This document shows, piece by piece, positions 12,406 through 35,447 of a stretch of 64,000 nucleotides of DNA (within the stretch, counting starts at the first letter, position 1; each line of letters starts with the position of its first letter). The notes under the pieces were generated by a model, which made no database searches, was not told where the DNA came from, and saw nothing but the letters and a program-made list of their open reading frames with translations. The stretch comes from Microbulbifer sp. VAAF005 (GTDB lineage Bacteria > Pseudomonadota > Gammaproteobacteria > Pseudomonadales > Cellvibrionaceae), in assembly GCF_030012985.1 (NCBI RefSeq), contig NZ_CP120233.1, positions 4,087,001-4,151,000 on the forward strand, given 5' to 3'. The translations under genes were made by a program, and so were the position numbers.

Positions 12406-12779
12406 AAATTAACCTGCTTTTTGAAAACCTTTTTACAGTTAATAGCTACCTGCTCCAAGAGCCCTACATATTGGCTTAGAGGCATATTGTACGCCGGTAC
12501 CAGCATCCTGTGACCGAAAGATCCCTTTTCAACCAATTTGAGGCCGGGCGGGAAATGAGTTCCCTTTTTAACCTCCCAAATCCAGCCTGTTAAAGGACTT
12601 TCTTCCAGGCCGGCTTTATTGTACAGGCTTACTCCGTTATCGTTCGCAACAATTACTTCAACATCGTTGACTATTATTGTTTTAACTTCCCTAGGCCGGA
12701 CCTTTGAGAGTCGAGAAGAAGAAGAGTTGCCAACTCTAAACAGATCTTCCTTGGATATATAAAGTTCTTCAGTGTTCAT
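12402..12779 (-). CDS. Hypothetical protein of the island, coupled to the next small gene
   Basis: 125 residues from an ATG at 12779 preceded by AAGGATG; the longer open frame (to 12896) has no better start signal. The body is soluble, with a patch around KTIIVNDVEVIVANDNGVSL, a WIWEVKKGTHFPPGLKL segment and a C-terminal helical part. It forms a two-gene unit with the 78-residue protein, which begins inside its stop codon. I recognise no domain. A toxin-antitoxin-like pair is conceivable from size and coupling alone, but that is speculation. Confidence 0.7.
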   Translation of the reverse strand: MNTEELYISKEDLFRVGNSSSSRLSKVRPREVKTIIVNDVEVIVANDNGVSLYNKAGLEESPLTGWIWEVKKGTHFPPGLKLVEKGSFGHRMLVPAYNMPLSQYVGLLEQVAINCKKVFKKQVNL

Positions 12780-13221
12780 AGTCATCATCCTTAATTGACT
12801 AGAGTAAATTCTGATTTTTACTTCATTTATGGCTGCCTGCCGTGGGGATTGTAACAATTGCGATAGGTAAATCAATAAAGTGAGAGGTGGCATCATAGGT
12901 GTATTTCTTTATATGAGTATCCAGCAATATCTGTTGCTCACTTTTCACTTAATTGTTAATTATTATTAGTTTGTACTTGGGTGCTCAGTAATGAAAGAAA
13001 GTTAAAGTCAATGTGTCTAATGGTTGCTGTTCAACTAAATTAGATTAAATAGGGGTAGGTTTAGTGTGCAGACATAGAATACTCACATCTTCCAGAGGGT
13101 AATATTTTAGAGTCTGCGTAATTACGTCCTTATCATGTAGTATCTAATCGCGTAACGATATAATAAGCTAAGAACAGAATAACTGTTTGCTAGTGAATAG
13201 TATCAGTAAAGAGGGATCTTA
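12780..13221. other. Non-coding, AT-rich divergent promoter region
   Basis: Separates the minus-strand small-gene pair from the plus-strand KAP NTPase. Rich in short AT tracts; no convincing ORF or RNA is seen. Promoters for both directions are presumed here. A ribosome-binding site (GAGGGATC) precedes the KAP start. Confidence 0.5.
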
Positions 13222-14676
13222 ATGAGTGAGCAAGCTATAGCTGAACAAAAAACAGGTGAGCTTTCAGTTCGTATTTCTGAGGTCTCTCTTTCCAAAGATA
13301 TATGGCCAGACCCCAAGGATCTCCTTGGTAGGTGTGGAGAGATAGAAAACCTAACTCCACTAGTGGAGAATGCCAAAGCACCTTTTGTCTTATCTATTGA
13401 CGCTCCCTGGGGAGGCGGGAAAACTACGTTTATTAAATTATGGCAAAACTATTTCAATACACGGGAATGTCCTAAAGTAAGCCTATATCTAAACGCCTGG
13501 GAAAATGACTTTGCTGAGGACCCATTACTAGCTTTGCTTGCTTGTTTGGATAAGTGGTTAGGTAAAGAAGACCCTGACTCTAAAACTGGAAAGGCTTGGA
13601 AAGTAGCTAAAGAGTATCTTCCTGGGGTAGCTAGAGGTACTATCACTGCTGCCGTAAAAGCAGCAACATTTGGTGCTTTAGATGCTGATAAAGCAATTGA
13701 AAAGGTTGCGTCTGATCTAGCTGGTGCTGGGGCAGATAAATTAATTAACGACTTTAATGCAAGAAAATCTGATCTAGAGAAGTTTAAAGCTAAGTTGGCC
13801 GAGGCAATTGAGGCATTACCAGGCAGTCAAAGGAATTTAATAGTATTTATTGATGAGCTAGATCGTTGCAGGCCAAACTTTGCCATTGAGCTACTAGAGA
13901 GGATAAAGCATTTATTTGATTTGGAGAGGATTGTGTTCGTTATTGCCGTTAATCATGACCAACTTGGTCGAGGTATTAAAGGCGTATACGGAAATGAGTT
14001 TGATGGCCATAGTTATTTGGAGCGGTTTTTTGATGTTGAATACCAGCTTTCAGCATCTAATAACTATACTTATGCTAAGATGCTGCTAATGGACAGAGAG
14101 TTTGAGACTTACTTCAGTTCCAGGCGCGAAGGTCGGGAAGAGCTTCTGTTTATACAGAAGGCGATTCCTAGATTTTGTGCACGATTTTCTTACGAGCCCC
14201 GAGATATAAATCGATTTATTGTGCGCTTAAAATTAATATTATCTGGTGTATCCTCAGAAAATTACCTAGATATATGGTTGGTTGTTGTTTTATTGTTTGT
14301 TAGAAGAGAAAACGAAAAGTTATATAATAACTATATGGCTGATGCTGGATGTGCTAACCAAATAGCTGAATTCCTTTTGGAAGGTTTTACTGAATCTATT
14401 CTGGAACATGAAGTCCCGTATTGGCTTAGTTTTACCCTCGGGTTTTTGATTTCTCTAGTGGAAGACTATGAGAAAAAGGATAGCCTTATTCAGTACTGGA
14501 AAGAAAATCCAAATATGATTACTTTTTCTATTGCCGATGCAGCATATGATTTGTCCAGTAATCTTATTGGGACTGCGGAAAGGTCGCACTATGAGAGAGA
14601 GCCGGCAGGGATAAGAAAGTTGGCATTTGATAGAATTGAGTTGCTCCATGCTGTGAAAATAATATCAGCTCCCTAA
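13222..14676 (+). CDS. KAP-family P-loop NTPase
   Basis: KAP NTPases are STAND-related P-loop proteins that in bacteria are often on mobile elements; the family includes the phage-exclusion protein PifA. The 484-residue protein has Walker A APWGGGKTTF (residues ~61-70), Walker B as LIVFIDELDRCRPNFAIELL (about residues 206-225), followed by the KAP-typical IKHLFDLERIVFVIAVNHDQ segment and the arginine-containing YEPRDINRF region. No clear transmembrane pair is seen in the insertion after Walker A, although the region around residues 125-150 is Ala-rich. It is the only plus-strand gene in this part of the island. A defence role is inferred from family and context; the activity cannot be read from the sequence. 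Confidence 0.88.
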   Translation: MSEQAIAEQKTGELSVRISEVSLSKDIWPDPKDLLGRCGEIENLTPLVENAKAPFVLSIDAPWGGGKTTFIKLWQNYFNTRECPKVSLYLNAWENDFAEDPLLALLACLDKWLGKEDPDSKTGKAWKVAKEYLPGVARGTITAAVKAATFGALDADKAIEKVASDLAGAGADKLINDFNARKSDLEKFKAKLAEAIEALPGSQRNLIVFIDELDRCRPNFAIELLERIKHLFDLERIVFVIAVNHDQLGRGIKGVYGNEFDGHSYLERFFDVEYQLSASNNYTYAKMLLMDREFETYFSSRREGREELLFIQKAIPRFCARFSYEPRDINRFIVRLKLILSGVSSENYLDIWLVVVLLFVRRENEKLYNNYMADAGCANQIAEFLLEGFTESILEHEVPYWLSFTLGFLISLVEDYEKKDSLIQYWKENPNMITFSIADAAYDLSSNLIGTAERSHYEREPAGIRKLAFDRIELLHAVKIISAP

Positions 14677-22119: not shown

Positions 22120-22791
22120 TTACGCCTCCTGAGTGTCATTCAATCGCTTTACAAGGCGTGATACAGTCATTGACTGGAACTCTCCACCCCTTGCTGTGGT
22201 TAATCCAGCTTTATTAAGTTCAGCGGCTATTTCCCTTGTAGTCATTCCAGCTGTAACAAGCGGCTGTACTATGCCTCTAAGGTTCTCAGCACGTTTATTA
22301 GCCTGCTTTTTGACCGCTACATTATTGGCTCTGTGTCCTGGCCTTTTGCCCCCTAGTTTCACACCGCGTGCTTTAGCTGAGGCCAGTGCTTGTTTGGTAC
22401 GCTGACTGATAAACTCCCTTTCTTGCTCTGCTAGAGCTGCATATAAATGAAGCTGGAACTTATCAGCGTGAGGCATACAGGCAACCTTAACGTCTACCTG
22501 TTTTATTACTGTGGCTATGTCTGCTACATCCCTACTAAGCCTATCTAGCTTGGCTACCAATAGCACAGCCTTCTTTTTCTTTGCGAGGACAATAGCTTCC
22601 TGCCTCTCTTCCTTTACAGCTCCAGTGTCTTTACCGGAAACAATCTCAGTGAATGTTTTCAGCACCTCAAAGGGCTGTCCACTGTATTGCTCTAGGTATA
22701 TCTGTATGTCCCGCTGCTGTGCTTCAAGCCCTAACCCTGAAGCACCTTGTCTTGAAGTGGAGACTCGGAGGTAAACAACATACTTAATCAC
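22120..22791 (-). CDS. Serine recombinase (resolvase/invertase family)
   Basis: 223 residues. The N-terminal catalytic domain has the nucleophile serine in [20 protein letters not shown], the conserved [15 protein letters not shown] motif and the [20 protein letters not shown] helix. The C-terminal part ([20 protein letters not shown]) is a helix-turn-helix DNA-binding domain. It is a small-type resolvase or invertase that could resolve dimers or invert a segment. The start is a GTG at 22791. A small membrane protein gene follows directly. Its location near attR means the element carries both tyrosine and serine recombinases. Confidence 0.92.
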
Positions 22792-27013: not shown

Positions 27014-27429
27014 GCGCAATTTTTAAGAAACTTATAAGGGGGATAATAGAGAGTGACTAATCATTTGTTAATGATTTTGTCATAAAGGATTTAAGTATCC
27101 AGATAAAGGCTGAAGTTGATGCAAATATCCTTACATTTATAAGGGTTGATATGGCAGTAGTCGATTCGTAGCGGGTAAACGGCCGTGCATATAATTTTCT
27201 GTCTGTGAGAGGGAAAAGATGCCCAGACTTGAGCCAGATCATTTTTCCCTAGTCAGAGTGGCATAAGGTAATGGAATTAGTGTCCCGGCAGTGACGCTGA
27301 GAGATTGAGCACTCAAAAATGAGGCAGAGGCGCTCGCACTGCTCTGAGTGTAACTGTTCCCTCTAGCTCTTAAAAAAAGCATGGCTATAGCAGAGTAAGA
27401 GGGCGGAGACTGGATCAGGGAGGATCGTG
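27014..27429. other. Region upstream of the Cascade operon, no cas3
   Basis: About 410 bases with no convincing gene: the minus-strand ORFs here lack start signals and protein-like composition. In a complete type I-E locus cas3 would sit upstream of cas8e; no part of it is present. The Cascade promoter is presumably here, and a GGGAGG ribosome-binding site ends the region. Confidence 0.6.
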
Positions 27430-29031
27430 GTGAATTTGGTTGAAGATTCCTGGCTGCCAATTATCCGGCGATGCGGTAAGCAGGAAAGAATTGCTCCTTG
27501 GCAAATTGTCGAGGTGGATAATCCTGTCGTAGATATTTGCACGGTACGACCGGATTTTCGCGGGGCGCTGTTCCAGTTTTTAATTGGCCTGTTGCAAACA
27601 GCTTTTGCACCTGAAAGTGTCGATGATTGGGGAGTCTACTGGAAAAAGGCGCCTACTGAGGAAACACTGAAATCACGGCTGCAAAACTACGCTCCCAATT
27701 TTGAATTGTTTCAAGAGTCCGGGCCTGCATTTATGCAGGACTTGGAATTGAGTGTGGGGGAATCAAAGTCGATTGCTGCCCTACTGATTGAGGCGCCGGG
27801 CAGTAAAACCTGTAGAGATAATCAGGATCTATTTATTAAGGGTGGTAGGGTGCTGGGTGTATGTCCCAGCTGTGCCGCTAGTGCCTTGTTTACCTTGCAA
27901 ATTAACGCCCCCTCCGGAGGAGTGGGGCATAGAACCAGTTTGCGTGGTGGTGGCCCTTTGACCACATTGATAATTCCAGAGGCAGAAGATGCCAACCTTT
28001 GGCAGAAATTGTGGCTCAATATCTTGCCACAAAAGGAGTTTGGGGCGAGGTCTGAAAGCTCTGATAGTTGTATCTTCCCCTGGCTCGCTCCCTCCCGCCT
28101 CTCTGACAAACAAGGTTCCTCTACGTCTCCCAATGATACCCATCCGCTGCAAATGTACTGGGGTATGCCGCGCAGGATACGTTTCCAAATCCCGAGAGAA
28201 GGCAAGGATTACTGCGACCTTTGTGGAGAGCAGACGAATCAGTTAATTCGGGAATATACCACTAAGAATTATGGCATTAATTACGAGGGTCCCTGGATTC
28301 ATCCCCTAACGCCGTATCGATGTGACCCCAAGAAAAAAGCCCCACCCTTGAGTTTGAAAGGTCAACAGAGTGGTCTCGGTTATCGACACTGGTTGGGGCT
28401 TATGTGGAATGACCATTCAAATGGCGATGAAGCGAGCCGGGCGGTGCGCTTGTTCCATGAGGAATATGCGGAAATTCTCGAAGAACTGGATTCGAATGTC
28501 GATGTGCGTCTATGGGGATTTGGCTATGACATGGACAATATGAAAGCGCGTTGCTGGTATGAACAGGAAATGCCAGTACTGCCTATTTCCCCCGAGTACC
28601 GGTCGCTATTTATGCAGCTGGCAGGGCAGCTTTTAACGGCTGCAAAAGATACTTTGAAAGAGCTGCGTTTTAGGGTCAAGGCTGCCTGGTTTAATAACCC
28701 TAATGAGGCTAAAGGGGATTTTTCATTTGTCGATCAGGCGTTTTGGCAGGCGACGGAAAGCCAGTTTTATCACTCGCTCAAGCAATTATCCCTCGAATCC
28801 AAGAAATCCCAATTTACACCTGCACCGGTGGCTATTGCCTGGGCACACATATTGAAAAAAACGGCCTTGGCGCAGTTTGACCATTGGTCAATGGAGGGCT
28901 CTGCGGAAGACTTGAAATTGCAGCGAGTGACCCGGGCGCGACGTTTTTTAAGAAATAAGCTCGCTAGTCTGGCAAGTTTAAATGCTCTGGATAATACAGC
29001 CAAAGTTGAGCAACAACAGGAGGAATTGTGA
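27430..29031 (+). CDS. cas8e: Type I-E Cascade large subunit Cas8e (Cse1/CasA)
   Basis: Large subunit of the type I-E effector complex, which recognises the PAM and normally recruits Cas3. 533 residues from a GTG at 27430, six bases after GGGAGG (the GTG one codon earlier is too close). N-terminal NLVEDSWLPIIRR, then DIKT-type PDFRGALFQFLIGLLQT, a zinc-like CPSCAASALFTLQINAPSGG motif, RTSLRGGGPLTTLI, a CDLCGEQ motif and a C-terminal four-helix bundle (AKDTLKELRFRVKAAWF). These are the usual features of Cse1. It overlaps the start of cse2 by one base (TGATG). It looks intact, although the nuclease it should recruit is absent. Confidence 0.95.
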   Translation: MNLVEDSWLPIIRRCGKQERIAPWQIVEVDNPVVDICTVRPDFRGALFQFLIGLLQTAFAPESVDDWGVYWKKAPTEETLKSRLQNYAPNFELFQESGPAFMQDLELSVGESKSIAALLIEAPGSKTCRDNQDLFIKGGRVLGVCPSCAASALFTLQINAPSGGVGHRTSLRGGGPLTTLIIPEAEDANLWQKLWLNILPQKEFGARSESSDSCIFPWLAPSRLSDKQGSSTSPNDTHPLQMYWGMPRRIRFQIPREGKDYCDLCGEQTNQLIREYTTKNYGINYEGPWIHPLTPYRCDPKKKAPPLSLKGQQSGLGYRHWLGLMWNDHSNGDEASRAVRLFHEEYAEILEELDSNVDVRLWGFGYDMDNMKARCWYEQEMPVLPISPEYRSLFMQLAGQLLTAAKDTLKELRFRVKAAWFNNPNEAKGDFSFVDQAFWQATESQFYHSLKQLSLESKKSQFTPAPVAIAWAHILKKTALAQFDHWSMEGSAEDLKLQRVTRARRFLRNKLASLASLNALDNTAKVEQQQEEL

Positions 29032-29608
29032 TGGCCGGATATCAATATCTTAGCGATACAGATGTGAGCCGACTGCGCGAGTGGCACCGCTGGCTCAATG
29101 ACAAAGCTGGCAGGGCCGATCGAGCGCGTTTGCGCCGTGCGGTGGAGCCTATGGATGTAATGCCTACTCCCGCCTTTATCCGTTTTTTAAAGGATATGCC
29201 AGAGCGCTGGCAGAAAGATGAGCAAATTCGTATCGAAGATGCGGCTCTGGTAGCCACAGTAATTGCACACGTAAAAGCTGATAACACGAGCAAAACAATT
29301 GATATTGATAGCAGCGAGGCTATGGATGTCAGCTTTGCCCGATCCCTGGCTATGCCCCGGGAGAGGGGCGGGCGCCCCCTTTAAGTGAGCTGCGCTTTTT
29401 TCAGTTACAAAAAAGTCGCGATACGGCCGAGTTTTATCGCCGCATAGTACGGGCCCTGGCCCTGCTGGATGGCAGGGCCAATATAGCTTCTCTTGCCAAT
29501 GATTTGCTGCACTGGCAAAGAGAGATGCGCACGATTCCAGCACGGCATCCACAGGAACGCCTGGCTGTGCGTTGGGCAACTGATTACTACGCCGTATTAC
29601 CAGACTGA
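29031..29608 (+). CDS. cse2: Type I-E Cascade small subunit Cse2 (CasB), apparent frameshift
   Basis: Small subunit that lines the Cascade belly and stabilises the R-loop. It starts in the overlapping ATG after cas8e, with CAGGAGG upstream. The first 117 residues (GYQYLSDTDVSRLREWHRWL and on) stop early after MPRERGGRPL. The normal C-terminal part, ELRFFQLQKSRDTAEFYRRI through LHWQREMRTI and WATDYYAVLPD, continues in the -1 frame to 29608. The break is at a run of five C (29375-29379); six C would give one protein of 192 residues. Both halves are well conserved, so I favour a sequence error or a recent indel over long-standing decay. Confidence 0.85.
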
Positions 29609-29791
29609 GAAGTATTTAGAGAATTACAAATTAAAGGGGTCTTAGGGGCCTAAAGAATTTTTAAATGCTATTCCCATAACAACACTAAGCACAGAGCAAA
29701 GCCAGACCGATTGACAGTGACTGTTGATCAGATACCTGAGAAATGAATCGAAGTAATGTGATGGCCTGACGGTCGCAACAAGGAGAGATTT

Positions 29792-30868
29792 ATGAGCCGC
29801 TTTATTCAATTGCATGTATTGACCGCCTATCCCCCTGCGAACCTGAACCGGGATGACTTGGGGCGGCCAAAAACAGCGAAGATGGGAGGTTGTGATCGCC
29901 TGCGAATCTCTTCCCAGAGCCTTAAGCGTCACTGGCGAACGTCAGAGTTGTTCCAGCAGGTATTGGCTACGGAGCAGGGGGATAGCCTAATTGGCACCAG
30001 AACCAAGCGTCAAGGGGTACTGGCCTATGAGACTTTATTGGATCTGGGTGTCTCTGAAAAAAAGGCCAAATTGTGGGCACAGAAAATTGCCGAGCAATTC
30101 GGTAAGTTAAAAAAGCCGGAAAAAGATAACCCTCTGGCCGATTTGGAAATCGAGCAGTTGGTTCACCTCAGTAGTGCTGAGCAAAACGGGATCAGTGCAC
30201 TACTGAAAACCTTGGCAGAAGAGGGGAGGGAGCCGGAGAAGACAGAGTTGGATTTATTGCGTAAGGAAAACATGGCGGTGGATATCGCCTTGTTTGGCCG
30301 TATGCTCGCTTCCAAGCCCACCTATAACGTTGAAGCTGCGTGCCAGGTGGCCCATGCACTCTCGGCTCACTCTGTAGTGATTGAAGATGATTACTTTACT
30401 GCGGTAGACGATTTGAATGATCGCAGCGAGGATGCCGGTGCTGCTCACTTGGGTGAGGCGGGTTTTGCTGCGGGATTATTTTATTCCTATATCTGCATTA
30501 ACAAAGAGCTGCTAATTGAAAACCTGGGCGGGGATAAACCCCTGGCCGATCGAGCCGTAGCTGCGCTGACTGAGACAATCCTTAAAGTTTCTCCCAGCGG
30601 TAAACAAAACAGCTATGCCAGCCGTGCCTATGCATCTTATGTCGTGGCCGAAGCCGGTGACCAGCAACCGCGCTCTCTCTCTGCGGCCTACCTGAAGCCG
30701 GTTGATCGCTATAGCGAGGATTACGCCCATGACGCTATTGATGCACTGCAAAAGCAATTGCAGAGTTTCGATAAGGTGTACGGGGATTGTGCCGATAGCC
30801 GCTATGTTCTCAATGCCGTAACTGGCGAAGGTAATATCGAGGAACTTTTGGCCTTTGTCAGCGAATAG
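29792..30868 (+). CDS. cas7e: Type I-E Cascade backbone Cas7e (Cse4/CasC)
   Basis: Backbone subunit that polymerises along the crRNA spacer. 358 residues with the family start SRFIQLHVLTAYPPANLNRDDLGRPKTAKMGGCDRLRIS (residues ~2-40), the KRHWR segment, an AVDIALFGRMLA block (thumb region) and a C-terminal ending VYGDCADSRYVLN. ATG with AAGGAGA seven bases upstream. A gap of 183 bases separates it from cse2, longer than usual in this operon, and could hold an internal promoter. The protein is intact and of normal length. Confidence 0.96.
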   Translation: MSRFIQLHVLTAYPPANLNRDDLGRPKTAKMGGCDRLRISSQSLKRHWRTSELFQQVLATEQGDSLIGTRTKRQGVLAYETLLDLGVSEKKAKLWAQKIAEQFGKLKKPEKDNPLADLEIEQLVHLSSAEQNGISALLKTLAEEGREPEKTELDLLRKENMAVDIALFGRMLASKPTYNVEAACQVAHALSAHSVVIEDDYFTAVDDLNDRSEDAGAAHLGEAGFAAGLFYSYICINKELLIENLGGDKPLADRAVAALTETILKVSPSGKQNSYASRAYASYVVAEAGDQQPRSLSAAYLKPVDRYSEDYAHDAIDALQKQLQSFDKVYGDCADSRYVLNAVTGEGNIEELLAFVSE

Positions 30869-30876
30869 GTGGCGCT

Positions 30877-31634
30877 ATGGAATACCTAGTATTTCGTCTT
30901 TACGGTGCCATGGCTTCCTGGGGGAAGTGGCTGTGGGGGAATCCCGCCACAGCGCACACTACCCGAGTAAATCCGCTATCGCGGGACTATTTGGTGCGGC
31001 ACTGGGGATACCTCGGGAGCGAGAGGACTTACACCAGAGCCTGGCCCGGCAATATCGCCAGGCGGTAAAGGTGCTGAATGTAGGTACTTTGCTAAAGGAT
31101 TTCCACACGGTGCAGGTCCCAGATTCCACTGGCAAGCGCCGCTACCATACGCGCCGGGATGAGCTAGTTGTAGGGAAAGCGCGTCTGGGAACCCTGTTAT
31201 CCCGCAGGGAGTATCTGGTGGATGCGCAGGCGATAGTGGCCCTAAGATCCTGTGAAGAGGCTAACTGGTCTCTGGCGGAGCTGTGTGAAGCCCTGGCCCG
31301 GCCAAAGTATCACCTCTATCTGGGGCGAAAAGCATTTCCCCTTTCAGCCCCCACTGCCGCACGGGTGATCGGTGCGGACAATTTCCGCAGCGCCCTGGAT
31401 CATTATGAATCCCCGGAGTTGCTGGATTACCAACCGGAATGGGCCCGGCAGGAGCGCTGGTTGCCTACAGAAGAGAGTTGTCGTTACTACTGGGAGGGTA
31501 GCTTGGATGATTTCTCTGCGGAAGATGGAGTGTTTTCAGCAGGATCTGTACAGCGGCTTAGCCGTCTCGATCAGCCCCTATCTCGCAAGCGCTGGCAGTT
31601 CCAGCCGCGTATTGAAAATCTCTGGCAGTCATAA
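30877..31634 (+). CDS. cas5e: Type I-E Cascade subunit Cas5e (CasD), apparent frameshift
   Basis: Subunit that caps the 5' handle of the crRNA. The proper N-terminus MEYLVFRLYGAMASWG starts eight bases after cas7e. The frame is lost at a run of five G (30920-30924); with six G it continues GEVAVGESRHSAHYPSKSAI, exactly the expected Cas5e sequence, to a 252-residue protein. The remainder (AGLFGAALGIPRERED, then the TRRDELVVGKARLGTLLSRREYLVDAQ region around residues 85-115) is intact. The break is a single-base homopolymer deletion like the one in cse2. If real, Cascade assembly would fail; if a sequence error, the complex is complete. Confidence 0.87.
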
Positions 31635-31644
31635 GGGAGCGGTT

Positions 31645-32415
31645 ATGTATTTATCCAGAGTTCAACTATCTCCCTCGCTGGCGGTGCAGAAGCAGCTGGC
31701 ACGGTTGCTCAGCGAAAACAGCTACGGTATCCATCAAATCTTGTGGGATCTTTTTGATGGTGATGAGCGTTTTTTATTTCGTGAGGAATCCTCGCGGGAA
31801 CAGCTGCTTAGCAAACGCAATCTACCGGTGTATTACCTGCTGTCTAAAGTCCGGCCTGCGCAGGACAATCCGATATTTTTGGTAGAGACTAAAATCTTCG
31901 AGCCCCGCTTAAACCCTGGCGATCGGCTGGCCTTCCGCCTGCGGGCGAACCCTACAGTTGCTCGTAAAACTGAAGGGCAAAAGCGCGGCAAGCGGCACGA
32001 TGTGCTGATGGATGCTCAATACCATTGGTTGCGGGAGCAGTGCGAATTGCATGGTTTACCTGTTGAAGGTGGCAAAGGGCAGCTGAAGCAGAGCTTGGTG
32101 CAGGAAAAGCCGGAGCAGTTTGACCAGGGGCAGATTGAAACCCGGTTACAGGATGTCAGCCAGACTGCCGCCCGCAGCTGGTTAATTCACCGGGGAACGC
32201 GCCTCGGATTTGATATTTACCCACCAAAGCTTCACTGCAATGGGTATCGTTGGAATTTGTTACATAAAAAGCAGCGCGGTGCTGGATTCAGTTCTGTGGA
32301 TTACCGGGGAGAGCTTTTGGTTATTGAACCCGAATTATTTATAAAAAATATTTTTGCGGGTATGGGGCCGGCCAAAGCATTTGGTTGTGGATTGATGTTA
32401 ATCCGCCGAATCTGA
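31645..32415 (+). CDS. cas6e: Type I-E crRNA endoribonuclease Cas6e (Cse3/CasE)
   Basis: Cleaves the CRISPR transcript at the 3' side of each repeat hairpin and stays bound to the crRNA. 256 residues from an ATG at 31645 with AAGGGAG eight bases upstream; a longer open frame begins inside cas5e and is rejected. N-terminal MYLSRVQLSPSLAVQ is typical, and the active-site His is in NSYGIHQILWDLF, with a Tyr nearby. The C-terminal glycine-rich loop is MGPAKAFGCGLMLIRRI. The repeat hairpins downstream, which vary in sequence but keep pairing, are its expected substrates. Intact. Confidence 0.95.
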   Translation: MYLSRVQLSPSLAVQKQLARLLSENSYGIHQILWDLFDGDERFLFREESSREQLLSKRNLPVYYLLSKVRPAQDNPIFLVETKIFEPRLNPGDRLAFRLRANPTVARKTEGQKRGKRHDVLMDAQYHWLREQCELHGLPVEGGKGQLKQSLVQEKPEQFDQGQIETRLQDVSQTAARSWLIHRGTRLGFDIYPPKLHCNGYRWNLLHKKQRGAGFSSVDYRGELLVIEPELFIKNIFAGMGPAKAFGCGLMLIRRI

Positions 32416-32531
32416 TTGGGATAAATAGAGTTGTTATACAACTGGAAGTGTTTGAGAGTGAGGGCTGGGATTCAAAAGTATCGGCAACGATACTGAGACT
32501 TTAGCGGATAGCAAATAGGCAGATTTAGAGA
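32416..32531 (+). promoter_or_regulatory. CRISPR leader-like region with a perfect hairpin
   Basis: 116 bases between cas6e and the first repeat, moderately AT-rich. At 32477-32494 an AGTATCG-GCAA-CGATACT hairpin sits about 57 bases before the first repeat's hairpin, close to one array period. It could be a strongly diverged extra repeat or a regulatory hairpin. Confidence 0.5.
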
Positions 32532-33111
32532 GTTCCCCGCATCAGCGGAGATAAATCGACCGGTGAGATGATGGTCAAACCAGCTTCATACTGTTCCCCG
32601 TATATACGGGGCTAAACCGGAGGGTATCCTGTTATACACTCCTTTCTGAATAGGTTCTCCGCATAAGCGGAGTTGCACCGGTAATTGCGCAATAAGGCGA
32701 TCTTAACTGAGGCTGTTCCCCGCCCAGGCGGGGTTAAACCGTGGAAAATCGTCAAAGCTGCACGGTAATGATTCGGGCTATTCCCCGCTGCTGCGGGGGT
32801 AAACCGAGTGTGGGGTTGGGTTGTGCCGACACCTGAGATTGTTCCCCCGCTGGGCGGGGCTGGACCGTAGCCGATAGCGCACGGACATTAGTTCTGAAAA
32901 TGTTTCCCCGAAAGCTCGGGGATGCAATGGGGGTGTGCTATGATCGCGCTCCTTTTGCGCGACTGTTCCCTGTTTGTACAGGGGTAAACCGGATAAGGCA
33001 TAGCCTTAGTGCTCTGCGCAAGGTGTTCCCTGAATGCTCGGGGATAAACCGACGATGGAGAAGTTGTCGGAGTGCATCCTAGTTGTTCCCCGCTCTCGCG
33101 GGGCTGCACAA
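32532..33111 (+). CRISPR. Type I-E CRISPR array with ten diverged repeats
   Basis: Ten repeats of ~27-28 bases begin at 32532, 32593, 32654, 32715, 32780, 32841, 32902, 32965, 33025 and 33085, with a period of 60-65 and nine spacers of about 33-38 bases. The consensus is close to GTTCCCCG...CGGGGATAAACCG, the type I-E pattern. Almost every repeat differs from its neighbours in the stem, loop or 3' end, yet nine of ten keep a complete stem of at least five or six pairs (one with a G-U pair); only the first has a mismatch. The array directly follows cas6e in the same orientation. No adaptation genes are present, so it is probably no longer updated. Confidence 0.9.
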
Positions 33112-33198
33112 CGACTTTTCCCTTCTTCTTTTTCCTGTAGATTTCGCAATCGAAAGCCCCGCAGTGTATTACCGGGGGCCTCTGAATTTTGGCTGGAA

Positions 33199-34557
33199 TT
33201 ATTGGAAGATTACGCCGGTATTACTCTCGCCGCCGATCTGGAAGTTAAAAGCGCGCCCATTAGAACCTGTCTGAGTAATTTCCTTGGTGTGATTGTTACC
33301 AATTTGCAGGCTAAAGGCTGAGTTGGAATCGCCACTCTGGGTGATGGTGATGTTATTACTATCGCCAAGTTGTCGGGAGCTTATTGAAAGAGACTCACCA
33401 GCCTGTTCGAACGTTGCCCGGTTATCGAAACCCAATTGACGGGTGAATATATCTACCTCTGTTCCAGCCTGCTCGATATTGGCAACATTCTGCAACCCGG
33501 TTTGTTCATTGGTCGCGCTGATCAGTAAGCCGCCTTGATTAATAACAACCACATTATCAATCAGGAACTGTTCGCTGTTCATGGAGTTGAATTCGGCACC
33601 CAGCTGGGAACCCGTAATCTGGTTGGTGGTACCGGTCTGGCGTATATCGATACTGCTACTCAATGCGGATTGTTCTAAAGCCGCGTTGTTGCCCCCACCA
33701 TTTTGGCGCAACTCAAGGGTATTAAAGGCACCGGTTTGGGTGATCGAGGTGATATTGGCATCGCCGAGCCTTTGGATAATCAGAAGGTCATTGAACAGAC
33801 TGTCTACTTGGGTTGCAAACGCGAAGTGGCGATTGTTTGTTTGCCGTAAAGTCATACTGCTGCTGACACTGGCAAATTGTGCGAGCCCGCCATAGATATC
33901 GCTGCCATCCTGCAGTATGTCCAAGGTGCCATCGATTGTGGCAACCAGGCTGGCGGTGGCGAAGTCGTCCCGATCAAACTGAAAGATTAAAACGGAACTG
34001 CCTATATTGCCTGCGGTTTCCTCTACCACGGCACTTTGCCTTTCGCCATCCTGGAATACAAAAATGCTGCCGTTAGCACTGGCTTCCTGGCGACCAATAA
34101 AAAAGTGACTGTCTCCATCCTGGATATTGGTAATGGTATTACCGCTGCCAAAGCGCTGCTCGATAGTGGAAGCGTTGGAGGTACCGAGTTGCAGAATAGA
34201 GACCTGGCTGTCGAGAGAGAGTTCCTGGGTTATCTCGGAAGTATTTTGCGAGCCGATTTGTGTATTGGTTGCGCTTAGAGAAGCACCACCGGATTGAGAT
34301 ATCGTGGTCTCGTTTTGACTGCCGATCTGGGAACTCTGAATACTACTGTTAATAACACCGCCACTTTGAGTGGCGGTAGCGGTATTAGTATCACCTATTT
34401 GGCGTTTGATAATAGTATTGCCGAAACCCGCTTCAGTTTGATCGGTACTCGCTGAGTTACCTGAACCGATTTGTTCCAAGTCAGTAGAGTTGGTGCCCAG
34501 CGCATTGCCGCTAAAGGCAACCAGTGCGAGTGTCGCAATACTGGCGCATAACTTCAT
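33199..34557 (-). CDS. Curlin-repeat secreted protein A
   Basis: 452 residues: a signal peptide (MKLCASIATLALVAFSGNAL) and then an uninterrupted series of ~22-residue curlin-type repeats with the spacing Q-x-G-x-x-N-x-x-x-x-x-Q, for example EQIGSGNSASTDQ and RQIGDTNTATATQ, ending IFQ. This is the CsgA/CsgB amyloid repeat pattern, so a secreted fibre-forming protein is inferred. CsgA has five repeats; this has around eighteen. A strong AAAGGAGTTA precedes the ATG, as in all family members here. It ends about 90 bases from the CRISPR array, convergent with it. No csg export genes are nearby. Confidence 0.88.
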   Translation of the reverse strand: MKLCASIATLALVAFSGNALGTNSTDLEQIGSGNSASTDQTEAGFGNTIIKRQIGDTNTATATQSGGVINSSIQSSQIGSQNETTISQSGGASLSATNTQIGSQNTSEITQELSLDSQVSILQLGTSNASTIEQRFGSGNTITNIQDGDSHFFIGRQEASANGSIFVFQDGERQSAVVEETAGNIGSSVLIFQFDRDDFATASLVATIDGTLDILQDGSDIYGGLAQFASVSSSMTLRQTNNRHFAFATQVDSLFNDLLIIQRLGDANITSITQTGAFNTLELRQNGGGNNAALEQSALSSSIDIRQTGTTNQITGSQLGAEFNSMNSEQFLIDNVVVINQGGLLISATNEQTGLQNVANIEQAGTEVDIFTRQLGFDNRATFEQAGESLSISSRQLGDSNNITITQSGDSNSAFSLQIGNNHTKEITQTGSNGRAFNFQIGGESNTGVIFQ

Positions 34558-34900: not shown

Positions 34901-35404
34901 TTATCGTGGGGACTTTCGACACTCGCGGTCCACGCGTTTTAATAAAGTGGGAATACGGTGGTCTCCATGCATCTTTTTCACCAAATTTTTGGCTTCCGGC
35001 AAAGGGAGACCGAGGCTGCTGATATACAGCGGTTTTATACTTTTTCCCCGCAGTAATTCAGCCTCAACAGGGGTGTCCTTAAACGGTTTCTTGGCGACAC
35101 CGATGATGGGAACTTCCTGCTGGAGAGCAGAGTAGAGATGGGCACCCAGACCCGGTTTTTGTTCCCCTCCGAGAAATACATAACCATCGATAACAATCAG
35201 TTCTGCTTCTATCTTGTGCTCCTCGATTAGGGTGAGGATACAGGGGAGTTCTCGCTTGTAGAAAGCACCGGACTCATAGGCCAAGGTACTCTCTATTTTA
35301 CTGAGATAGAGTTGCTCGGGCTCGGGAGCTGACCAATTCTCAAAGCCGACCCCGGCTACCATTGCTCCGGGGTCCCGGTAATCTACATCTACCGCCAAAA
35401 TCAT
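34901..35404 (-). CDS. Endonuclease V family protein
   Basis: About 167 residues. Endonuclease V nicks DNA (or RNA) next to deoxyinosine. Family landmarks are in order: AVDVDYRD (first catalytic Asp), the YESGAFYKRELPCILTLIEE block, LIVIDGYVFLGGEQKPGLGA (second Asp), VPIIGVAKKPFK and the C-terminal HRIPTLLKRVDRECR. It is shorter than E. coli Nfi (~220) but this compact form exists. I prefer the ATG at 35404, which has an AAGG about ten bases upstream, over the one seven codons earlier. It is followed at some distance by the curlin gene A; no functional link is suggested. Confidence 0.85.
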   Translation of the reverse strand: MILAVDVDYRDPGAMVAGVGFENWSAPEPEQLYLSKIESTLAYESGAFYKRELPCILTLIEEHKIEAELIVIDGYVFLGGEQKPGLGAHLYSALQQEVPIIGVAKKPFKDTPVEAELLRGKSIKPLYISSLGLPLPEAKNLVKKMHGDHRIPTLLKRVDRECRKSPR

Positions 35405-35447
35405 ATTGGGAGCCTTTTTTTCCATTGAGCCGAATGTTGTGATTGGT

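Follow-up and report, generated by a model that had tools for sequence, protein, structure and literature searches.

In Escherichia coli, the type I-E system includes Cas8e, Cse2, Cas7, Cas5 and Cas6e together with hairpin-forming repeats, which carry an AAACCG handle and recur with a period of ∼61 nt. Homogenisation and turnover of arrays are normally too rapid for selection on a single repeat or a single spacer to leave its mark. In a relative of Photorhabdus, Xenorhabdus nematophila, the NilD crRNA reportedly has a role in host colonisation.

Two described systems are closer. At the eda locus of Xenorhabdus, I-E genes without cas1 and cas2 lie beside an array, and the accessible part of the report describes conserved repeats, strain-specific spacers and a full cas set elsewhere (PMC11566119). 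In CreTA, according to the available sections of its description, degenerate repeats are processed for Cascade-guided repression of a toxin RNA rather than for immunity; one or two repeats accompany the toxin RNA, and the haloarchaea studied have no conserved repeat hairpin (PMC9458426). Degenerate repeats that guide Cascade and I-E genes devoid of cas1 and cas2 are, on these portions of the two papers, known already (PMC9458426, PMC11566119).

We analysed a window of 64,000 nucleotides that starts at position 4,087,001 of the 5.40-Mb single-contig genome of a Microbulbifer. Its I-E locus shares gene order, hairpin repeats with the AAACCG handle and the ∼61-nt period with the systems of E. coli and of a related Microbulbifer (L003), and differs from both in having no Cas1 or Cas3 HD match, repeats that are all different and spacers that are common across species. 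It is like the Xenorhabdus eda locus in having I-E genes without cas1 and cas2, but its repeats have diverged and its spacers are shared; whereas CreTA has one or two repeats outside an array, the window has ten in a regular array with a conserved hairpin (both comparisons being with the accessible parts of those papers). In the literature within reach, which excluded most subscription journals, nothing was found on repeats covarying within an array or on period-six conservation of spacers, and the combination seen here, an entire frozen array in which hairpins covary and guides are conserved with a period of six, appears to be new relative to the literature searched.

The effector operon and the ten repeats

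A profile search identified a type I-E effector operon, cas8e-cse2-cas7-cas5-cas6e, at 27427-32415; all five genes are present upstream of the array, which follows on the same strand. In the list below, G010 is a sister genome with the same ten repeats and spacers, and G004 is a further genome with a related array.

27427..29031, + strand: cas8e (cse1), first gene of the operon, open frame (Pfam CRISPR_Cse1, E 2.5e-115)
29031..29608, + strand: cse2 (cas11), broken, first frame to 29384 and second to 29608; 1 base fewer than G010 near 29374
29792..30868, + strand: cas7e, open frame (Pfam CT1975, E 8e-102)
30877..31634, + strand: cas5e, broken; 1 base fewer than G010 near 30926
31645..32415, + strand: cas6e, crRNA-processing endoribonuclease, open frame (Pfam CRISPR_assoc, E 1e-44)
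32416..32531, + strand: leader-like gap from cas6e to repeat 1; 4 differences in 116 bases relative to G010
32532..33111, + strand: frozen CRISPR array, 9 spacers between 10 diverged repeats with cores of 27 nt
32532..32558, + strand: repeat 1, C.A mismatch in the window, U-A in G010
32593..32619, + strand: repeat 2, C-G to U-A
32654..32680, + strand: repeat 3, CTCCGC/GCGGAG; likely G004 orthologue CCCTGC/GCAGGG, judged from its order and a spacer of loose similarity
32715..32741, + strand: repeat 4, CCCCGC/GCGGGG; G004 orthologue CCCTGC/GCAGGG
32780..32806, + strand: repeat 5, none matching it seen in G004
32841..32867, + strand: repeat 6, extra C; the stem has slipped one base and closes a loop of 3 nt
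32902..32929, + strand: repeat 7, extra T, handle decayed
32965..32991, + strand: repeat 8, two compensatory pairs
33025..33051, + strand: repeat 9, U.G and A-U; found in G010, G004 and M. variabilis
33052..33084, + strand: spacer 9, nt 1-11 common to M. variabilis; nt 1-21 common to G004 except nt 6 and 12
33085..33111, + strand: repeat 10 (terminal), positional orthologues in M. variabilis (CCCTGC/GCAGGG) and in G004

The first-pass annotation of this DNA had described ten repeats at a 60-65-base period, nearly all different, and this was borne out: the starts listed above are 60-65 bases apart, all ten repeats are distinct, and the near-identical repeats of ordinary type I-E arrays are absent. 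Mean pairwise identity is 0.67, as compared with 0.99 over the 29 scored repeats of L003, which has cas3, cas1 and cas2. The stems that had been named for individual repeats were found as stated, as were the mismatch in repeat 1 (C.A) and the G-U pair in repeat 9 (U.G); the extra bases of repeats 6 and 7 had gone unmentioned.

Between the window and G010, the Cascade genes are under purifying selection, with dN/dS values of 0.17 (cas8e), 0.12 (cse2), 0.034 (cas7), 0.13 (cas5) and 0.075 (cas6e). All five Cascade frames are open in G010, whose cas8e stops a few codons before the end of the window's, a difference that one search scored as a stop. Over the 27.4-39.9 kb interval, the two genomes differ in length by a single base at three places inside frames: in cse2, in cas5 and near 35415, not far from where a minus-strand frame (34901-35425) starts. 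The breaks in cse2 and cas5 reflect either a system that is dying in the window genome or assembly errors. With both frames broken, the Cascade complex is probably failing in this genome, and any claim of use therefore concerns the lineage rather than the window strain.

The cas6e genes of the window and G010 are 99% identical, with a dS of 0.09 as compared with 0.22-0.41 in the remaining operon, perhaps owing to recombination. A curlin-repeat protein is encoded convergently to the array (33199-34557, minus strand); it has 62 matches in the window genome, and some are found in 41 of 48 Microbulbifer genomes. The nine frames scanned around the locus contained no Tn7-like transposition genes and one serine recombinase, which lies upstream of the operon (22120-22791, minus strand).

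Adaptation genes and repeat uniformity

Profile searches, in which the E. coli positive controls matched, detected no Cas1 in the whole window genome (G000) or in G010, G030 or G004, as against matches in 10 of 48 Microbulbifer genomes; the Cas3 HD domain (Cas3_HD) likewise had no match in these four, as against 7 of 48. Cas2 was not found at the window or M. variabilis loci, the search covering the fetched loci. The lack of a Cas1 match, together with array units that are common to other genomes, upholds the earlier claim that the array has been frozen for a long time: in the comparison with related strains, G010 was found to share all ten units, G004 seven and M. variabilis the last two. The seven-repeat array of G004 lies beside the orthologous curlin-repeat gene in a genome with no Cas8e, Cas6e, Cas1 or Cas3 match; BLAST aligns units 6-10 of this array with the window, and unit 4 was placed by the start of its spacer, while for unit 3 there is only its order and a spacer of loose similarity. 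In M. variabilis, 21 kb of sequence contain the effector genes but none of cas3, cas1 and cas2, and five hairpin repeats were read by eye in the array (four were scored), of which the last two correspond to window repeats 9 and 10, matched by the spacer between them.

The third and fourth repeat starts of M. variabilis are 235 bases apart, and no repeat was seen between them (L002:12840-13101). Its Cas8e (L002:7713-9311) is 51% identical to that of the window and its Cas7 83%, a divergence of the large subunit that suggests exchange or fast change of Cas8e. Another Microbulbifer carries a 44-residue Cas8e-like remnant (G043:C1:2426586-2426717).

Diverged repeats are not unique to the window array, since Photorhabdus has them as well. 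Seven of its species share one frozen array that can be aligned over all of them (L022, L028, L029, L031, L034, L035 and L069, ∼12660-13450), which in L028 was read as 13 repeats separated by 12 spacers; these loci have cas3 and all Cascade genes and no cas1 or cas2. A hairpin scan, in which the most uniform array per locus was taken, covered 79 loci (76 gathered via Cas7e plus the window, G010 and G004) and found arrays in 65. Among loci with cas1, 52 of 53 arrays were uniform, and 7 further cas1 loci had no scored array; where cas1 was missing and at least 2 kb had been read after cas6e, 10 of 10 were diverged. These ten comprise the seven Photorhabdus species, the window, G010 and L068, and so represent few independent lineages. 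The array of G004, whose 3.3-kb locus is devoid of cas genes, is also diverged; L061 has a uniform array without cas1, on a contig that ends 616 bases after cas6e; and M. variabilis was scored as having none because its repeats lie in two separated groups. The exception among cas1 loci, from Alcanivorax UBA4485, has a four-repeat diverged array despite the presence of cas1 and cas2 (L048:13793-14001). Divergence of the repeats thus accompanies loss of the adaptation genes from the locus in two lineages or more. In the absence of Cas1-Cas2, no new repeat would be copied at the leader, so that concerted evolution would have ended and the repeats would have diverged singly, an order of events that the comparison supports.

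Covariation in stems and conservation in spacers

Pairing was examined by re-dealing the 3' arms of the stems among the 5' arms (200,000 shuffles) and counting Watson-Crick pairs; the G010 repeats were excluded because they are nearly equal to those of the window. The ten window repeats have 56 of 60 pairs as compared with a shuffled mean of 47.6, a count reached in 24 of 200,000 shuffles, and when all seven repeats of G004 and four of the five from M. variabilis were pooled with them, the count was 113 of 126 against a mean of 95.6, which no shuffle reached. Taken alone, neither the G004 repeats (35 of 42; reached in 16,149 of 200,000) nor those of M. variabilis (22 of 24; 16,692 of 200,000) were significant. 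Over the same 21 pooled repeats, 92.9% of cells were paired as compared with 85.0% after shuffling (0 of 500), slid registers giving at most 56.3%, and the covariation score was 0.313 versus 0.155 (0 of 500). Pairs altered on both arms occupied 13 cells versus 3.9 in shuffles, whereas the number of further pair types was not raised (6 versus 6.2; 406 of 500). Stem changes on one arm are thus matched on the other, as had been described, and more often than expected by chance.

Matched changes can also be read between orthologues: repeats 4 and 10 have CCCCGC/GCGGGG where their orthologues, from G004 and M. variabilis, respectively, have CCCTGC/GCAGGG, repeat 9 has A-U as its innermost pair in the window and U-A in M. 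variabilis, and repeat 3 (CTCCGC/GCGGAG versus CCCTGC/GCAGGG in G004) adds another if its orthologue assignment holds. In Photorhabdus L028, the stems of 11 of the 13 repeats have 48 of 66 Watson-Crick pairs, or 62 of 66 when G-U is allowed, and the former count was reached in 1,092 of 200,000 arm-swap shuffles; the hairpins are largely kept, with more wobble than in Microbulbifer. Among the distinct stem cells of 59 of 84 Photorhabdus repeats (those in the 27-nt register, 25 out of register being excluded), 22 are U.G or G.U and 3 are C.A or A.C (p = 8e-5), with 5 other mismatches. The corresponding Microbulbifer counts, 4 and 1, are not significant (20 repeats, two slipped ones excluded). 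Because wobble is common and C.A or A.C rare, the pattern fits an RNA hairpin rather than repair of a DNA palindrome, and the hairpins look to be held by selection at the RNA level. The claim that selection has kept the pairing thus draws support from both the covariation and the wobble bias.

Cascade leaves every sixth crRNA base flipped out, and its seed comprises nt 1-5 and 7-8, as given in the accessible part of the source (PMC5904413). Anchoring succeeded for four of the six orthologous spacers that the window shares with G004 (R4, R6, R8 and R9), R3 being left out for a length difference at the junction and R7 for its decayed handle. In all four, nt 1-10 agree between the two genomes except for nt 6 in R4 and R9, and the first 14 bases of R4 and the first 21 of R9 differ only at nt 6 and 12. 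In Microbulbifer, the seed (nt 1-11 without 6) is variable at 2 of 40 positions, as compared with 33 of 56 at nt 19-32; within nt 1-18, sixth positions vary in 8 of 12 cases versus 10 of 60 elsewhere, and versus 9 of 24 at their two neighbours (p 0.10). Between the window and G010, differences number 3 of 99 in nt 1-11 and 19 of 209 later (nine units, p 0.06), or 1 of 88 and 18 of 185 without unit 7 (p 0.009).

Since the period of six was first noticed in the Microbulbifer rows, Photorhabdus is the sole independent test, comprising 12 spacers in 7 species, with indel-bearing rows dropped for the main counts; columns are counted as independent in all of these spacer tests, rather than placed on a tree. 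Sixth positions were variable in 26 of 60 cases versus 69 of 300 elsewhere (one-sided p 0.0014) and versus 25 of 120 at their two neighbours (p 0.0016), while the seed (nt 1-11 without 6) varied at 15 of 120 positions as compared with 48 of 144 at nt 19-30 (p 8e-5). With indel rows included, the counts within nt 1-18 were 18 of 36 versus 39 of 180, the sixth-position effect had p 0.015 in a logistic model that allowed for a trend with position, and 132 of 20,000 trials with randomised phase came up to the observed value; the corresponding figure for the two genera together was 7 of 20,000. Synonymous sites are saturated relative to M. variabilis (pS 0.74-0.86), yet nt 1-11 of spacer 9 are unchanged there. 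The spacers, as far as aligned sequences can tell, bear the footprint of Cascade-mode pairing in seed and sixth base, and the crRNAs, rather than the hairpins alone, appear to have been under selection for such pairing.

Possible roles of a fixed set of guides

The reading that we favour, with a probability of about 0.72, is that an I-E array without adaptation has been kept, now or until recently, as a set of fixed Cascade guides for targets that stayed constant over species divergence. A type I-E locus would have lost its adaptation genes and, in Microbulbifer, cas3 too, while the array and the Cascade operon would nevertheless have been retained under purifying selection. Each repeat hairpin would be held for Cas6e processing, with the 3' handle largely held, and each spacer for Cascade-mode pairing, the conserved seed and freer sixth bases lending this step statistical support. 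Cas6e would then cut crRNAs, Cascade would load them and the constant targets would be bound; in Microbulbifer, where Cas3 is missing, DNA would be bound uncut, most likely with silencing of chromosomal genes through seed-length matches. The suggestion that the crRNAs may still be used holds in part: it draws support from the lineage, in which guide seeds look to be held, and not from this genome as it stands, with its broken cse2 and cas5. Because there is no Cas3 match, such use cannot mean ordinary immunity. The conservation of the guides suggests that they were kept to bind fixed targets rather than to record new viruses, and we infer gene regulation by them. The more specific proposal that Cascade was domesticated independently in Microbulbifer and Photorhabdus as a multi-guide silencer of chromosomal genes, with a fixed array and conserved short-seed guides, is tentative, and we hold it at somewhat below even odds.

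No convincing target emerged from five pattern searches (R9, R4, R8, and spacers 12 and 1 of Photorhabdus), the matches lying in conserved coding sequence or being unconserved. With nt 6 and 12 free, R9 has a one-mismatch match antisense in der in G000, G010, G030 and G004, preceded by TTG, TTG, TTT and TTC, respectively, none of which is known as an I-E PAM. Because these flanks differ and ∼0.5 matches per genome are expected by our own estimate, the der match was taken as chance in conserved coding sequence. No site for R4 outside the array was conserved between genomes, and R8 with AAG or ATG had a single match, in G010 only. Photorhabdus spacer 12, searched in 4 of the 7 genomes, gave nothing convincing; spacer 1 matched a shikimate-kinase-like gene in 4 of 4 genomes with a mismatch at nt 8 and AAT before it, probably by chance. 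Across the window and 0.4 Mb of genome, no match of at least 11 leading bases lay beside AAG, ATG, AGG or GAG; the same scan returned eleven leading matches of 9-10 bases with such a triplet and four of at least 11 bases without one. For E. coli Cascade, just 5 seed bases beside an AAG PAM can be enough for DNA binding (PMC5904413), and real targets may thus be too short for a pattern search.

Other explanations of the locus have to be weighed against fixed guides. Frozen guides might still confer residual immunity by recognising persistent phages, plasmids or transposons with target sites that cannot change, and a constant foreign target would indeed give the same seed and period-six conservation, in Photorhabdus at loci that retain cas3 and all Cascade genes. 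The Microbulbifer genomes have no Cas3 match, however, and so would not cut; the foreign target would have had to stay constant while synonymous sites saturated; and a search of 50,697 phage records returned no match for the window array and one for that of Photorhabdus (37 bases, 86%, E 0.07). We consider residual immunity unlikely. Far less probable is a neutral relic, in which the array decays and its pairing is what remains of an ancestral palindrome. Two cas genes are broken in the window, repeat 7 and its handle have decayed, and several stem cells are unpaired in G004, where neither Cas8e nor Cas6e has a match, all of which would suit a relic; but it is already contradicted by the covariation, in particular by the excess of cells changed on both arms, and dN/dS values well under 1 and the seed and period-six pattern count against it as well.

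Matched changes on both arms could also arise in a single event through template switching at quasi-palindromes, a DNA-level correction that would restore complementarity with no need of RNA function. Such correction would not account for wobble that persists while C.A stays rare, a distinction seen solely by the RNA strand (clear in Photorhabdus, 4 versus 1 only in Microbulbifer), nor for conserved seeds, which are no palindromes, and we give it very little credence. Equally improbable to us is that the whole array has turned into a structured regulatory RNA with hairpins in its spacers too. Some spacers can be folded (R5, R7 and R8), and mean folding z values are negative in the window (-0.41, 9 spacers), Photorhabdus L028 (-0.47, 12 spacers) and M. 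variabilis (-0.82, 3 spacers), although these departures from mononucleotide shuffles are weak, G004 is at +0.19 (6 spacers), two functional control arrays are at -0.05 and -0.09, and 32400-33200 has no Rfam match. Spacer hairpins as the conserved feature were rejected on the weakness of these z values.

On the favoured reading of fixed guides, a frozen array would reveal which bases matter in nature: from evolution alone, both the Cas6e hairpin and the Cascade seed and sixth-base rule were recovered. Fixed guides would also have been useful over species time, and host regulation by I-E systems, an old question, is now testable, the guides and their seed bases being written out in several species.

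A third lineage with a frozen array is possible. The contig of L068, binned as Methanoregula, has cas8e to cas6e and neither cas3 nor cas1 in 9.6 kb, and its array (L068:5115-5384) consists of five diverged repeats with a mean identity of 0.80, four of which have the same stem.
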